DNA from: Rhodanobacter sp.
GTDB lineage: Bacteria; Pseudomonadota; Gammaproteobacteria; Xanthomonadales; Rhodanobacteraceae
Reading direction: 5' to 3'
Length of the DNA: 34,695 bases
NCBI GenBank assembly: GCA_022730295.1
Contig: DZCM01000018.1
Location: forward strand, 1-34,695
Shown: positions 24,646 through 31,262 of the stretch, piece by piece
Numbering within the stretch: position 1 is the stretch's first letter
How the letters are laid out: each line of letters opens with the position of its first letter
Notes under the pieces: generated by a model
The model's input: the letters and a program-made list of their open reading frames with translations, nothing else
Databases searched by the model: none
Told to the model about the DNA's origin: nothing
Position numbers and translations under genes: made by a program

Positions 24646-25392
24646 TCAAGCCAGTCCTTTTTGTTGCAGCAGCGCCACCAGTTCGGCGACATCCTTCACC
24701 ATCACCCCGCGCGAACGCTTGGCCGGCGGCGCGTAGTTCGTGTTGCTGATTTCGCCACCGTGCGCGACGCCGAGTGACGCCAGTTCGACGGTTTCGATCG
24801 GCTTGGCCTTGGCCTTCATGATGTCGGGCAACTTGATGAAGCGCGGCTCGTTCAGGCGCAGGTCGGTCGTGATGACGGCCGGAAGATCGACCTCGATGGT
24901 TTCGAGGCCGGCGTCAACTTCGCGCGTCACCGTGGCCTTGCCATCTGCCACTTCCAGTTTCGAGGCGAAGGTCGCCTGTGGACGATCCCACAGCGCCGCC
25001 AGCATCTGCCCGGTCTGGCTGCAATCATCGTCGATGGCCTGCTTGCCGAGGATCACGAGGCCCGGCTGTTCCTTTTCGACCAGCTTCAGGAGTGCGCGCG
25101 CCGCCGCCAGCGGCTGCACCGGCTCGGCCGAGACCACGTGGATCGCGCGGTTGGCGCCCATCGCGAGACCATTGCGCAGGTGCGGCTGGGCATCGGCGGG
25201 AGCGATGGTCGCGATGATGACTTCTTCCGCGATGCCCTGCTCGCGCAAGCGCAGCGCTGCCTCCAGCGCGATATCGTCGAACGGGTTCGGCGACAACTTG
25301 ACGCCTTCGCTGGCGACGCCCGAACCATCGGGCTTCACCTGGATGCGCACGTTGAAATCGACCACGCGCTTGTATGCAACCAGAATCTTCAT
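24646..25392 (-). CDS. etfB: Electron transfer flavoprotein beta subunit
   Basis: MKILVAYKRVVDFNVRIQVKPDGSGV; ETF beta signature region VDAGLETIEVDLPAVITTDLRLNEPRFIKLPDIMKAKAKPIE; ATG at 25392. Confidence 0.95.
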   Translation of the reverse strand: MKILVAYKRVVDFNVRIQVKPDGSGVASEGVKLSPNPFDDIALEAALRLREQGIAEEVIIATIAPADAQPHLRNGLAMGANRAIHVVSAEPVQPLAAARALLKLVEKEQPGLVILGKQAIDDDCSQTGQMLAALWDRPQATFASKLEVADGKATVTREVDAGLETIEVDLPAVITTDLRLNEPRFIKLPDIMKAKAKPIETVELASLGVAHGGEISNTNYAPPAKRSRGVMVKDVAELVALLQQKGLA

Positions 25393-25458
25393 CGGAAATC
25401 CCTTGCGTGCGGCAAGCCATTGCAATCAACGGGCCATTGTAACCGACCTCCCGTTTTG

Positions 25459-25509: not shown

Positions 25510-26739
25510 TTACGACTCCCGGACCTGCGCGGCTTCGGTATGACCGAAGAAACGTGCGTAGAGCACGAGGTAACCAAGTTGCAGCGCGGCGCCGAGCATG
25601 AAGGGCAAGGTCAAATGCCCGCTCGCGAACAGCGCGCCACCGAGCAACGGGCCGATCGCGCGCGGCAACTGGATCGACACATTTTGCAGGCTGCTGGCGA
25701 GGCCGCGGCGTTCGGCGCGCGTCAATCCCGCGGCCAGCGCCTGGCGCACGCCGCCGGTGCCGCGATTGGAAATGCCGCGCGCGATGTACAAGCCCATCGC
25801 CGGCCAGAACCACGGCACCAGCGGCATCGCGATCAGCAGCGCGACGCCCACACCGCGCATCCACAGCACCGCGTTCATGATGCCGTGGCGGCGTGCGATC
25901 CAGCCGGCGAGGAACGAACCGCCCGCGCCGGCCAGCAGGCCCAGCGCGATGCCGGGTCCGATCACCAGCAGGCCGCGGTGGAACTTGATCGCGAACCAGT
26001 ACGCGATCAGCGGGCCGATCAGGCCGATCCCGAGTCCGTTCAATAAATTGGCCAGTAACAGTTTGGCCAGCAGACGATTTTCCGCGTGGCGCACACGGCT
26101 CGCGCCAGCGTCTTCGCGATCGTGCAGGGCACGCACCGCGGGTTCGCGCGCCAGCCACAGCAACACGACGCTCCCGATCGATCCCGCCAGCGGCAACACG
26201 AACAGCAGCCGGTAATCCGCCGGGCTCATGGCGTGTCCCATCCACCACGCGGGGATCGCGGCCAGCAACGCGCCGGTCCCCATGCCGGCAAAACCGACGG
26301 CGCTGTTGATACTGAAGATGCTGCCGCGGCGTGCCATCGGCAGCTCGATCGCGAGCCACGCCTGTTCGATCGGCGAAAACGCACCCGCGGAGCCATTGGC
26401 GCCGCGCCCGAATGCGCCGATCACCGCCGCCGCGACCAGCAGCCACGGCGCGGTAGTCGCCATCGCGACGATCGCCGCCAAGGCTTGCGCGAGGTCGTAG
26501 CCGATCAGGAACCGGCGCCGGCCGCCGCGGTCGCTCAAGGGACCAACGATCATCGTCAGCACCGTGCCGATCAGCAGCGCGCCCATCAACACCGCACCGA
26601 TCGCGGTGCCACTCCAGCCCAGCGCATGCAGGTACAGCGCGAAGGCCGCCACCATCGCGCCCTGGCCGATACTGCGCACCGCGCGCATGCCGATCAGCAG
26701 GCGCACGTTGCGGGACAGGGGTGGTCTTGCAGCGGTCAC
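25510..26739 (-). CDS. Major facilitator superfamily transporter
   Basis: ~12 hydrophobic segments; GPLSDRGGRRRFLIGYDL (MFS loop 2-3 motif); probable GTG start at 26739. Confidence 0.83.
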   Translation of the reverse strand: MTAARPPLSRNVRLLIGMRAVRSIGQGAMVAAFALYLHALGWSGTAIGAVLMGALLIGTVLTMIVGPLSDRGGRRRFLIGYDLAQALAAIVAMATTAPWLLVAAAVIGAFGRGANGSAGAFSPIEQAWLAIELPMARRGSIFSINSAVGFAGMGTGALLAAIPAWWMGHAMSPADYRLLFVLPLAGSIGSVVLLWLAREPAVRALHDREDAGASRVRHAENRLLAKLLLANLLNGLGIGLIGPLIAYWFAIKFHRGLLVIGPGIALGLLAGAGGSFLAGWIARRHGIMNAVLWMRGVGVALLIAMPLVPWFWPAMGLYIARGISNRGTGGVRQALAAGLTRAERRGLASSLQNVSIQLPRAIGPLLGGALFASGHLTLPFMLGAALQLGYLVLYARFFGHTEAAQVRES

Positions 26740-26878: not shown

Positions 26879-27808
26879 TCACCCTGGCCGCCGCGTCAGC
26901 GGCGGGGGGATGTCGCCCGCGCGCTGCAAAATCACGGCGGCGAAGCGCGCGGCGGCGCCGTCGGCGTATTCGAGGAACACCGAGGGTTCCACCAATTCCA
27001 GTTCCAGCAGGCACGGCGCACCATCATCGTCGCGGATCAAGTCGACGCGCGCATACGGCAGCGGTTGCGGGAACGGGATTGCCGCCAGTGCCCGTTGCGC
27101 CACCGCCATTTCGTCCGCTGACGGGGTGCGCGGCGTGATGGCTTCTTCCGCGTACAGGCTGGTGGTCGACCCCTCGTTGCGTTTCAGGAGCGGGCCCTTG
27201 CGGATCGCGTGGCTGAACTCGCCTTCGAAGAACAGCAGTGCGGTTTCACCGTGTTCGTCCACGCGCGCGAGATAGGGTTGCAGCAACACGCTGCGGCTGG
27301 CGTCGAGCAGGCGCTGCGTGTGCGCGATCATCGCCGCGCGCGCGCTGTGCACATGCCGCTGCGCATCGCGCGAGCCAGCGCCTACCGCGGGTTTCACCAC
27401 GAAATCCTGCGCCTGCGGATGCGCCGCCAGTGCGGCGTCGATCGCGCGTTCCGCATCCGCGCCCGGCTCCACGAAAGCACTCGGCACCACCGGTACGCCG
27501 GCCTCGGCGAGAGGAATGAGATAGTGTTTGTCGGTGTTCCAGCGCAGCACGTCCAGCGGATTCAGCAGCCGCGTTTGCCGCGACACCTGTTCGACCCAGC
27601 CAAGGAATTCGGGCAGGCGCTCGAAGTAATCCCAGGTCGAGCGCAGCAGCACCAGATCGAAGCACGACCAGTCAGCGCTGTCGTCATCCCAATCTACTTC
27701 GCACGCATCGGCGCCGGCGTCGCGCAGGGCCGCGAGCAGCGGCGGCATGTCATAGTCGGTGCCGCGCGCGGCGCGTGCGGTCACCAGGGCAATCATGGGT
27801 TTGGTCAT
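26879..27808 (-). CDS. ATP-grasp ligase-like protein (DcsG/RimK-like)
   Basis: LLRSTWDYFERLPEFLGWVEQVSRQTRLLNPLDVLRWNTDKHYLIPLAEAGVPVVPS; DFVVKPAVGAGSRDAQR; PYARVDLIRDDDGAPCLLELELVEPSVFL (ATP-grasp metal-binding E-x-E/N region). Confidence 0.82.
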   Translation of the reverse strand: MTKPMIALVTARAARGTDYDMPPLLAALRDAGADACEVDWDDDSADWSCFDLVLLRSTWDYFERLPEFLGWVEQVSRQTRLLNPLDVLRWNTDKHYLIPLAEAGVPVVPSAFVEPGADAERAIDAALAAHPQAQDFVVKPAVGAGSRDAQRHVHSARAAMIAHTQRLLDASRSVLLQPYLARVDEHGETALLFFEGEFSHAIRKGPLLKRNEGSTTSLYAEEAITPRTPSADEMAVAQRALAAIPFPQPLPYARVDLIRDDDGAPCLLELELVEPSVFLEYADGAAARFAAVILQRAGDIPPPLTRRPG

Positions 27809-28518
27809 GCGGCTTGGATATCCACGTAGAGCAGGCGCCAATCCACGACCACCTCGCCCTCGACGTGGCGAAAGCCGACGAGATCGCCCAGCGCTTCGCG
27901 CAATGCCGTGGGCGGGCAGTCGATGACACCGAACAAACCGGCACAAAATTCGAGCATCCGCGCTTCATCAGTGAAGTGCCAGGGACACGCCAGCTCACCG
28001 AGGCGGATCACGCTCCCCAGCTTGGCGAACCACGCCGGATCGGCGGCCAGGTAACTACCTTCGTGGCCGGTGACGTTGTAGCGGCCGACGAAACCGTCGA
28101 GGAAGCGCGCGACCCCCGAGCCGCGGGCGACATCGGCCAGATGCAGGGTGCCTCGCGGGTGCAGGCGCGTCAGCAAGGTGCGCAGGAAGACGGACTGGTC
28201 TTCGATGTGATGCAGCGCTGCGAGACAAACTGCGTGGTCGAAGCTGCCATGCGGCCACGGCTGCGCGGGATCGTACACGGGCACGTCGTTGCCGAAACCG
28301 TGCGTAAGTTCGAGGCACAAGACTTCGACATCATCAGGCAGCCACCGGCGCAGGTAGCCGCCACCGGAGGGCAGGTCCAGCACGCGTTGTCCGGTGTGCG
28401 CCGGCGTGCCTTCGAACAGCCGCGCGAATTCCGCATCGCGCGCATGCGGGTGCCGCAACATTGCGCCGTGGTAGGCGTCGCCGCGCTGGGTGAAGATTTC
28501 GCCGTATTCGAGCCTCAC
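27805..28518 (-). CDS. Class I SAM-dependent methyltransferase
   Basis: RVLDLPSGGGYLRRWLPDDVEVLCLEL (motif I), FDHAVCLAALHHIEDQSVFLRTLLTRLHPRGTLHLADV; 4-nt overlaps with both neighbours. Confidence 0.85.
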   Translation of the reverse strand: MRLEYGEIFTQRGDAYHGAMLRHPHARDAEFARLFEGTPAHTGQRVLDLPSGGGYLRRWLPDDVEVLCLELTHGFGNDVPVYDPAQPWPHGSFDHAVCLAALHHIEDQSVFLRTLLTRLHPRGTLHLADVARGSGVARFLDGFVGRYNVTGHEGSYLAADPAWFAKLGSVIRLGELACPWHFTDEARMLEFCAGLFGVIDCPPTALREALGDLVGFRHVEGEVVVDWRLLYVDIQAA

Positions 28519-29552
28519 GCCGTGGCCACCTCGCGCCGAGGGTGACGCCAGCGTGATGGATCGACCACCAGTGCGCCGAGTGCCTCGCGGACCTCGCGGA
28601 TTGGTGCGTCCCAGCAGTTCGGACCGGGCATGGTGTTGATCAGGATGTCCATCAGCGCGTTGACCTCGTAGATCAACAGGCGACCATCGGGACGCAAGTT
28701 GCAGTCGATGCCGAAGTAGTCAAGATCGATCGTGTTGGTGAGCGCGCGCAGGCGTTCGGCGAGTTCCGGCAGCAGCGTCGACGCGAAGGTCGCCAGCAAC
28801 CGTGCTTCTTCCTGCAGCGCAGCGATGTCACGGTCGCCTGCGTGCACCATCCATTCAGCCGCCACGACTTGATGCCGCATGAATACCTCGCCGCCCACGA
28901 TCACCAGCCGCAACTTGCGGTAGTGGCCGTCGCGATCACGACTGTCGACGTATTCGGTAAGGTACAAATCGTGGCCGCCCCAGGCCAATCCACGCAGTCC
29001 TTCCTTCGCCTGTTGCGGACCATCGATGCGCACCGTGGCAGCACCGCGGTGACTGCCGGTGGTGCGCACGATCAGTGGCCAGACGAAGCTGTTTTTTCGC
29101 ACTGCGCGCGCAAGGTCGGCTGGCTCTTCGAGGCGTACCCGGATGGTGCGCGGCACGTGCAGGCCGTCGATCCCGGCGAGTGTCTCCGCCACGCGTTCAC
29201 GCGCGGTGCCGAGTACCGCCGAGGGATGGTTGAAACAGGCGACATCGTTCGCACACAGGTGTTGCTCAAGCATCTGCAGGGCGAGCTGCGACATGTCGGC
29301 GTCGGCAATGGCGTTGATATGCGGACGGGTGCGCAGCGCGGGCGGCATGCGGAGCGGGACGCCGGGACCGAAAATGACCGGGAGCATGCGTTGCTTGGTC
29401 TGCGGCGCGAGATCGGTGACGATCCGGCCGTTGCCGAGGAACACGTAGTTGATCGCGCCATTTTGGCCCATGCGCACCGCCGCCTGGCCGTTGTCGGGAA
29501 TACCCAGCAGCAGCGGGAACAGCGATTTCGCAGGCGCGACATGATCGGTCAT
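28515..29552 (-). CDS. Second ATP-grasp-fold protein (RimK-like ATP-grasp domain)
   Basis: FVWPLIVRTTGSHRGAATVRI; KLRLVIVGGEVFMRHQVVAAEWMVH; DLDYFGIDCNLRPDGRLLIYEVNALMD; ATG at 29552 preferred (GTG 29591 possible). Confidence 0.75.
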   Translation of the reverse strand: MTDHVAPAKSLFPLLLGIPDNGQAAVRMGQNGAINYVFLGNGRIVTDLAPQTKQRMLPVIFGPGVPLRMPPALRTRPHINAIADADMSQLALQMLEQHLCANDVACFNHPSAVLGTARERVAETLAGIDGLHVPRTIRVRLEEPADLARAVRKNSFVWPLIVRTTGSHRGAATVRIDGPQQAKEGLRGLAWGGHDLYLTEYVDSRDRDGHYRKLRLVIVGGEVFMRHQVVAAEWMVHAGDRDIAALQEEARLLATFASTLLPELAERLRALTNTIDLDYFGIDCNLRPDGRLLIYEVNALMDILINTMPGPNCWDAPIREVREALGALVVDPSRWRHPRREVATA

Positions 29553-29609
29553 GGGTGCAATCCGGGAAATGTCATGGTTTTGGATGCGCACATCGGCGCG
29601 GGGCCAAGC

Positions 29610-31262
29610 CTAAAGGTTCTGGTAGTTCGGCCCGGAGCCACCTTCCGGCGTGACCCAGGTAATGATCTCGTAGGGGTCCTTGATGTCGCAGGTCTTGCAG
29701 TGCACGCAGTTGGCTGCGTTGATCTGCAGGCGCAGCGGGTTGCCGCCCCCGGCCACGGTGTCGGCGACGATTTCGTACACATTGGCGGGACAGTAGCGCG
29801 TGCAGGGATTGCCGTATTCGGTGACGCAGCGGTCGATGCAGATCGACGTGTCGGCCACATGCAGATGCACGGGCTGGTCCTCATCATGTTCGGTGGCGGC
29901 GAAGTACACCCCGGCCAGGCGATCGCGTGGCGGCAGGTTGCGTTCGACCCAGCCGGGCTCGCGCGATGACGTGGCATTCGGACCGGGTCGACTGTCCAGC
30001 GTGGCCGGCGGATCGAGCTTGTCCAGCGCCGAAAAATCCGCGTGGTTCTTCAATGTCCACGGCGACAGTCCCGCGGTCAGGGTTTCCCAGCCTGCATTGA
30101 ACAAGCCACGCCACATGCCGCCGTGGAAACCCGGGCGGATGTTGCGCACCTTCTTCAGCTCCTTTGCGATCGGCGAGGCACGCAGGCGCGCGTCGAAGCC
30201 CTCGGCGGATCGTTGCTCGGCAAAGTGTTCGGCGGCGAGCATGCCTGCGCGCAGCGCCTGATGCGTGCCCTTGATCTTCGGCACGTTCATCAAACCGGCG
30301 GCGTCGCCGATCAAGAGTGCACCCGGCATCTCGACTTTCGGCAGCGACTGAATGCCGCCTTCGATCAGCGCGCGCGCGCCGGCCGACACGATCGTGCCGC
30401 CTTCCAGCAACGGTTTGATGCGCGCGTGGTTCTTCAACTGCTGGAACGCTTCCCACGGACGGAACAGCGGATCGGAATAGTCCAGCCCAGCGACGAAGCC
30501 GATCGCAATGCGGTCCTGGTCGAGTTGGTAGATGAAGCTGCCACCGTAGGTTTTCGAGTCGAGTGGCCAGCCCAGCGTGTGGGTAATGTGGCCGGCCTGC
30601 ACGCGGCCCGGCGGCAGCTGCCACAGTTCCTTCAAGCCGATGCCGTAGGTTTGCGGATCGCAGTGCTGGTCGAGGCCAAATTTCGCGATCAACGTTTTCG
30701 TCACGCTGCCGCGACAGCCCTCGGCCAACACGGTGAGCGAGGCTCGGATATCAATGCCTTGCGTGTAACCGGGCTTGTGCGAGCCATCCTTGGCGACACC
30801 CATGTCGCCGATCCGCACGCCCGCAACCGCACCCTTGTCGTCAAACACCGCGTCACACGCAGCGAAACCGGGGAAGACGTCCACGCCGAGAGCTTCGGCC
30901 TGCGCCGCCAGCCACGCGCACAGCGCGCCGAGGCTGACGATGAAGTTGCCCTTGTTGTGCATCTGCGGCGGCGTCGGCAATTTGCTCGCGCGCTGCGCGT
31001 CGCGCAGCAGCAGGAATTCATCGTGTGCGGCGGGCACGCAAATCGGCGGCGGATTATCGCGCCAGCCCGGCAGCAAGGCATCCAGCGGCGCAGGTTCGAT
31101 CACCGCGCCCGAAAGGATCTGTGCGCCCACGGTCGAACCCTTCTCGATCACGCAGACGCGGGTGTCAGGCTTGAGCTGCTTCAGGCGAATCGCGAAGGCC
31201 AGCCCGGACGGGCCGGCGCCGACCACGACCACGTCGTATTCCATCGTTTCGCGTTCGGCCAT
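29610..31262 (-). CDS. Electron transfer flavoprotein-ubiquinone oxidoreductase
   Basis: DVVVVGAGPSGLAFAIRLKQLKPDTRVCVIEKGSTVGAQILSGAVIEP; C-terminal 4Fe-4S CTRYCPANVYE / NCVHCKTCDIKDPYEIITWVTPEGGSGPNYQNL. Confidence 0.95.
   Translation of the reverse strand: MAERETMEYDVVVVGAGPSGLAFAIRLKQLKPDTRVCVIEKGSTVGAQILSGAVIEPAPLDALLPGWRDNPPPICVPAAHDEFLLLRDAQRASKLPTPPQMHNKGNFIVSLGALCAWLAAQAEALGVDVFPGFAACDAVFDDKGAVAGVRIGDMGVAKDGSHKPGYTQGIDIRASLTVLAEGCRGSVTKTLIAKFGLDQHCDPQTYGIGLKELWQLPPGRVQAGHITHTLGWPLDSKTYGGSFIYQLDQDRIAIGFVAGLDYSDPLFRPWEAFQQLKNHARIKPLLEGGTIVSAGARALIEGGIQSLPKVEMPGALLIGDAAGLMNVPKIKGTHQALRAGMLAAEHFAEQRSAEGFDARLRASPIAKELKKVRNIRPGFHGGMWRGLFNAGWETLTAGLSPWTLKNHADFSALDKLDPPATLDSRPGPNATSSREPGWVERNLPPRDRLAGVYFAATEHDEDQPVHLHVADTSICIDRCVTEYGNPCTRYCPANVYEIVADTVAGGGNPLRLQINAANCVHCKTCDIKDPYEIITWVTPEGGSGPNYQNL

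Follow-up and report, generated by a model that had tools for sequence, protein, structure and literature searches.

The window analyzed here is the whole 34,695-nt stretch of Rhodanobacter sp. contig DZCM01000018.1. Three consecutive minus-strand genes in it are flanked by ETF genes, with the ETF-ubiquinone oxidoreductase gene (ETF-QO, 29610..31262, minus strand) upstream and ETF subunit genes downstream. The three encode GraspA (28515..29552; 345 aa, ATG at 29552), a short RimK/LysX-type ATP-grasp ligase; MT (27805..28518; 237 aa, GTG at 28518), a class I SAM methyltransferase; and GraspB (26879..27808; 309 aa, ATG at 27808), a DcsG-family ATP-grasp protein. GraspA and MT overlap by 4 nt (GTGA, 28515–28518), as do MT and GraspB (ATGA, 27805–27808). 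Upstream of GraspA is a gap of 57 nt, and 139 nt separate GraspB from an MFS transporter gene on the same strand (25510..26739; GTG start; MFS_1 match, 4e-25), beyond which the minus-strand ETF beta subunit gene (24646..25425; likely start ATG 25392) forms the downstream border of the locus. An alternative GTG start for GraspA lies upstream at 29591, but homologues favor ATG 29552. Codon use is coding-like for the GraspA, MT, GraspB and MFS genes, which were themselves within the training set; this and the existence of homologues elsewhere indicate that the three-gene arrangement is not a chance ORF pattern. The preliminary description of this DNA had reported the same overlapping genes and MFS spacing, and these coordinates were confirmed; the ATP-grasp peptides that it quoted are present in the translations. 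Its failure to see a precursor peptide ORF also holds, as the overlaps and short gaps leave no space for one.

Profile searches agreed with the earlier view that the two ATP-grasp proteins are distinct, GraspA being RimK-like and GraspB a member of the DcsG family. GraspA scored 21.7 bits against RimK PF08443 (cut-off 21) and 29 bits (E = 6e-7) against TIGR00768, far below the curated cut-off of 143.4, and is therefore RimK-related rather than a member. On the strength of profile matches to PDB 3vpd (E = 3e-6) and, weakly, LysX, carboxylate-amine ligation appears the likeliest chemistry for GraspA. GraspB is homologous to DcsG over its full length and matched PDB 6jil DcsG with an E value of 2e-71. 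The middle gene had been called a class I SAM methyltransferase, which is supported by scores above the gathering thresholds of both Methyltransf_23 (PF13489, 29.9 versus 27 bits) and Methyltransf_11 (PF08241, 27.9 versus 21.2 bits) and by a glycine-rich SAM motif, DLPSGGGYL, with D48, G53 and Y55 invariant in nine members. The nine MT relatives have a G151-H152-x-G154 element in common. Among solved structures, those closest to MT are generic methyltransferases of small molecules, which is not diagnostic, and a weak PADLOC match of MT to mad2 is not a defence assignment.

A structure prediction of GraspA from four sequences was of low confidence (mean pLDDT 37); sequence profiles were used instead, and residue positions were assigned by alignment, not structure. 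Over 15 divergent members, R118, R163, R212, K213, R215, D278, D283 and E296 are invariant. R118 is the basic residue of the linker, R163 lies on strand 2, D278 and D283 are the acidic residues of strand 4, and E296 belongs to the strand 5 ExN motif, whose asparagine, N298, occurs in the window and in most rows, with D or A at this position in some of the longer forms. GraspA matches the ATP-grasp template residues summarized in PMC4431377, except that arginine replaces the typical lysine of strand 2. The preliminary description had made its reading depend on both ligases keeping their ATP-binding and metal residues; these are kept, as the GraspA template positions are invariant and the ATP- and metal-binding stretches of GraspB are common to 6jil. 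Four further invariant residues of GraspA, H168, H227, W234 and H237, are specific to the family and suggest a common substrate pocket. Assignment of GraspA to the R2K clade, which has two conserved RAGNYA lysines, no linker basic residue and a divergent strand 2–3 loop (PMC4431377), was rejected, given its linker R118, strand 2 R163 and GxHxG loop. R2K_3 matches were weak and confined to two relatives.

In a midpoint-rooted tree of 48 ATP-grasp rows, the nine short forms of GraspA (MT-paired, ICMT-associated, Tct-associated and unpaired) fell into one group (SH-aLRT 89), set apart from the longer forms. Among the longer relatives, some of which carry TPR repeats, a PLP decarboxylase is a neighbor in 13 rows or loci and a SerC-like aminotransferase in 11. 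Both are enzymes of amino-acid-like substrates, which hints at the substrate class of GraspA. Five loci with longer relatives (L037, L108, L114, L117 and L173) lie near flagellin or fliS and also contain the PLP decarboxylase or the SerC-like aminotransferase; flagellin modification is a possible role of these genes. A divergent relative in L116 (L116:7368-11416) is accompanied by asparagine-synthase-like, sulfotransferase-like, PaaK-like and 6-pyruvoyl-tetrahydropterin-synthase genes, in what looks like a biosynthetic cluster.

The distributions of the two ligases were compared across genomes. When 60 relatives and the window were searched, 40 genomes had a GraspB match and 4 a GraspA match, of which one was distant; close GraspA was found in 3 of 234 family-set genomes, all of the same genus, the remaining matches being distant, longer forms. 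Each of the 13 same-genus contigs with GraspB (window included) has it downstream of ETF-QO, and 12 have it upstream of ETF-beta, the 13th contig stopping before that point. GraspA is absent from 10 of these contigs and MT from 12. The MFS gene follows GraspB in seven, five of them without GraspA. Because most genomes of the genus retain GraspB and the MFS gene but have neither GraspA nor MT, GraspB is assigned to the ETF locus itself, frequently accompanied by the MFS gene, and GraspA-MT has the look of cargo.

The interval between ETF-QO, its upstream border, and GraspB differs from genome to genome. It holds GraspA-MT in the window, GraspA with an ICMT-type methyltransferase in L035 (PF04140, 60 bits), GraspA alone in L036 and a prolyl-oligopeptidase-type (S9 peptidase) gene in L038, L039 and L042-L044 (Pfam check on L043), and is short or empty in L040, L041, L045, L046 and L047. 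The same-genus loci L035-L047 thus show a variable cargo slot inside an otherwise conserved ETF locus.

Conservation of the trio as a unit was the preliminary description's own refutation test, and the synteny search went against it: among all loci examined, GraspA, MT and GraspB are adjacent only in the window. GraspA followed by MT, by contrast, recurs with no GraspB nearby. The pair is found in L057 (MAG SZAS-112), with a spore-coat-U fimbrial operon before it and the rpsB-tsf region after it, in L101 and L102 (family f73) and in L169, from a genome (G691) listed under a different class of the phylum. The ligase gene always comes first, on the same strand, and the two genes overlap or lie at most ~40 nt apart by predicted starts. 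MT matches are rare, occurring at E ≤ 1e-20 in 7 of 369 class genomes and 3 of 399 phylum genomes, and such rarity combined with adjacency to GraspA in separate lineages takes the association far beyond chance. To judge from these gene orders, the pair, with GraspA as its first gene and MT as its second, is what evolution retains, rather than the trio, and GraspB is placed outside the module.

The partner of GraspA is not constant. An ICMT-type (PF04140) methyltransferase takes the place of MT beside GraspA in a single genome (G005), which hints that methyl transfer is wanted at that site, and G010 has GraspA without MT. In f95 genomes, GraspA adjoins a Tct transporter and MT is absent. In L103 and L104 (f95), the genes of a TctC-TctA-TctB-type tricarboxylate transporter are immediately upstream of the short-form GraspA, and in this lineage the substrate may be a di- or tricarboxylate. 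A single-sequence scan of genome contigs gave no match; a three-row profile search of the contigs gave three loci, two of them those of G005 and G010. No relative was found on viral contigs, and plasmids yielded only distant, longer GraspA relatives and one remote MT. The simplest history would be one entry into the ETF slot within the genus, with MT persisting in the window, giving way to another gene in G005 and disappearing from G010. GraspA and MT resemble the neighboring genes in base composition, so the insertion was not recent or the donor DNA was similar.

On balance, we favor a reading in which two units stand side by side: GraspB of the ETF locus, often with the MFS gene, and an inserted GraspA-MT unit for amide ligation and methylation of one small molecule. 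The two genes of this unit, a sporadic module, would have landed in the variable interval that separates ETF-QO from GraspB. GraspA would use ATP to turn a carboxylate into an acyl phosphate and join the activated carboxylate to an amine, which probably belongs to a small molecule resembling an amino acid. MT, translated together with GraspA, would use SAM to methylate that molecule (as an O- or N-methyl), capping or finishing it, and the product of this exchangeable module would be a methylated, amide-bonded small molecule. What the sequences show directly is the order of the genes, the repeated pairing, the conservation of catalytic residues and the independence of GraspB; the chemistry and the sharing of one substrate by both enzymes are inferred. 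It counts against this reading that the MT–GraspB translational coupling seen in the window could have acquired a function once the module was in place. Of the ligation pathway first proposed, a compact ligase/methyltransferase unit remains, and the membership of GraspB and the MFS transporter does not.

Relatives of MT without GraspA, ~30–35% identical to the window MT, have other partners. Four f154 genomes have them directly after a QueC-like PP-loop gene, overlapping it or at most 5 nt away (L133:7272-8649, L186:5154-6522, L187:660-2038 and L188:4990-6355); a DUF4915-TPR (TIGR03032-like) gene adjoins this QueC-like/methyltransferase pair in L186, L187 and L188. G673 has an MT relative after a weakly QueC-like gene (20.2 bits versus a cut-off of 22). 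In L132, L134 and L135 (L134 via tblastn only), MT relatives lie within two genes of a PaaK-like adenylating gene. The MT family tree does not separate these partner groups. ATP-grasp, QueC-like PP-loop and PaaK-like families are all able to activate carboxylates with ATP, and the derivation of all three partner types from such families suggests that MT acts on carboxylate-derived small molecules. It is a speculative and rather unlikely extension that the MT family marks a metabolite group built by exchangeable carboxylate-activating enzymes (R-type ATP-grasp, QueC-like and PaaK-like), usually with the activator first; if true, one methyltransferase family would serve three unrelated activation chemistries.

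An alternative to a free small molecule is a protein or surface structure, with GraspA-MT adding a peptide tag and a methyl group to a pilin, flagellin or surface glycan. RimK and its kin act on protein C-termini, the L057 pair comes after the fimbrial operon, and flagellin genes are found within ~8 kb of longer GraspA relatives in L037, L108, L114 and L117, as is fliS near the one in L173. There is also a precedent in flagellin modification in Shewanella, where sfmD/sfmE encode a methyltransferase and an ATP-grasp protein (PMC3765264). However, the flagellar neighborhoods belong to longer GraspA forms with other partners, and no surface-protein gene lies near the copies in the window, L035, L036, L101 or L169; we regard this alternative as improbable. 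Like GraspA-MT, SfmD-SfmE of Shewanella oneidensis combines an ATP-grasp protein and a SAM methyltransferase in one operon, and has a methylated product. It consists of a 412-aa ATP-grasp_4 protein and a 395-aa methyltransferase, with the methyltransferase first, in a nonulosonic-acid operon (PMC3765264), whereas GraspA-MT is ligase-first; the two systems are set apart here by description, not by sequence.

The larger claim of the preliminary description, that two ligases, a methyltransferase and their own exporter make up one pathway producing and exporting a small peptide-like product, fared poorly, adjacency being the single observation in its favor. The 4-nt overlaps do connect all three window genes, and in each of the three same-genus genomes with GraspA, GraspB is next to it or almost so. 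These three cases nevertheless fit a single insertion followed by shared descent, and what is seen looks like one insertion. Most same-genus genomes keep GraspB and the MFS gene without GraspA or MT, and GraspA-MT recurs away from GraspB, which leaves a joint pathway a quite unlikely outcome.

It is very improbable that this is a graspetide (RiPP) locus whose precursor peptide escaped notice. ATP-grasp and methyltransferase genes are common together in graspetide loci, including those with PCMT-type O-methyltransferases (PMC8939145), but the overlapping genes and the 57- and 139-nt gaps give no room for a precursor, GraspA matches maturase models weakly (TIGR04187, 0.0018; TIGR04184, 0.0077) and the window MT does not match PCMT; ligase and methyltransferase come from other families. 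A further known combination of two ATP-grasps and a methyltransferase is the mycosporine pathway; neither ATP-grasp protein of the window matched any mycosporine-named model.

GraspB bears on the naming of DcsG relatives. It scored 357.7 bits in the window against the NF058666 DcsG model, just under the equivalog cut-off of 360, and the L038 orthologue (L038:3711-4604) scored 368.8; eight orthologues spanned 311–369 bits around the cut-off, most others lower than that of the window. An arginase-family search of the rest of the genome, as a proxy for DcsB, gave a canonical-looking match elsewhere in all six genomes. Despite these DcsG scores and the ATP- and metal-binding stretches in common with 6jil, it is scarcely credible that GraspB makes D-cycloserine or a close cyclic analog within a cycloserine-type cluster, as no other dcs-type gene lies beside it (the neighbors are ETF, MFS and unrelated genes), the strong arginase-family match comes from a different contig and does not single out DcsB, and, unlike an antibiotic cluster, GraspB occurs at an ETF locus in nearly all of the genus and commonly in the family. 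The NCBI model thus borders on mislabeling a common Rhodanobacteraceae gene beside which no cycloserine pathway is visible, and some orthologues would receive the name D-cycloserine synthetase with no cycloserine genes in their surroundings, an annotation trap.

As far as can be seen this is no graspetide locus; nor is it R2K or a D-cycloserine cluster. The preliminary observation was correct and its larger interpretation mostly was not. Compared with RimK and LysX-ArgX (TIGR00768, PDB 3vpd and 1uc8), GraspA is alike in its ATP-grasp profile and carboxylate-activating template residues and differs in its subfamily score, its strand 2 arginine, its family-specific histidines and tryptophan and its methyltransferase partner. 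No publication on GraspA-like proteins or DcsG relatives in such a context was found in the literature searched, although an earlier mention in a 2009 amidoligase survey is possible (PMC3268129). GraspA represents an uncharacterized RimK-like branch whose partner varies by clade (methyltransferase, PLP decarboxylase or SerC-like aminotransferase), pointing to a substrate class. A misleading trio is replaced by a testable two-enzyme unit: GraspA-MT would be a rare, sporadic and apparently uncharacterized module, the new neighbor in a soil bacterium of a widespread and separately conserved DcsG-family gene.
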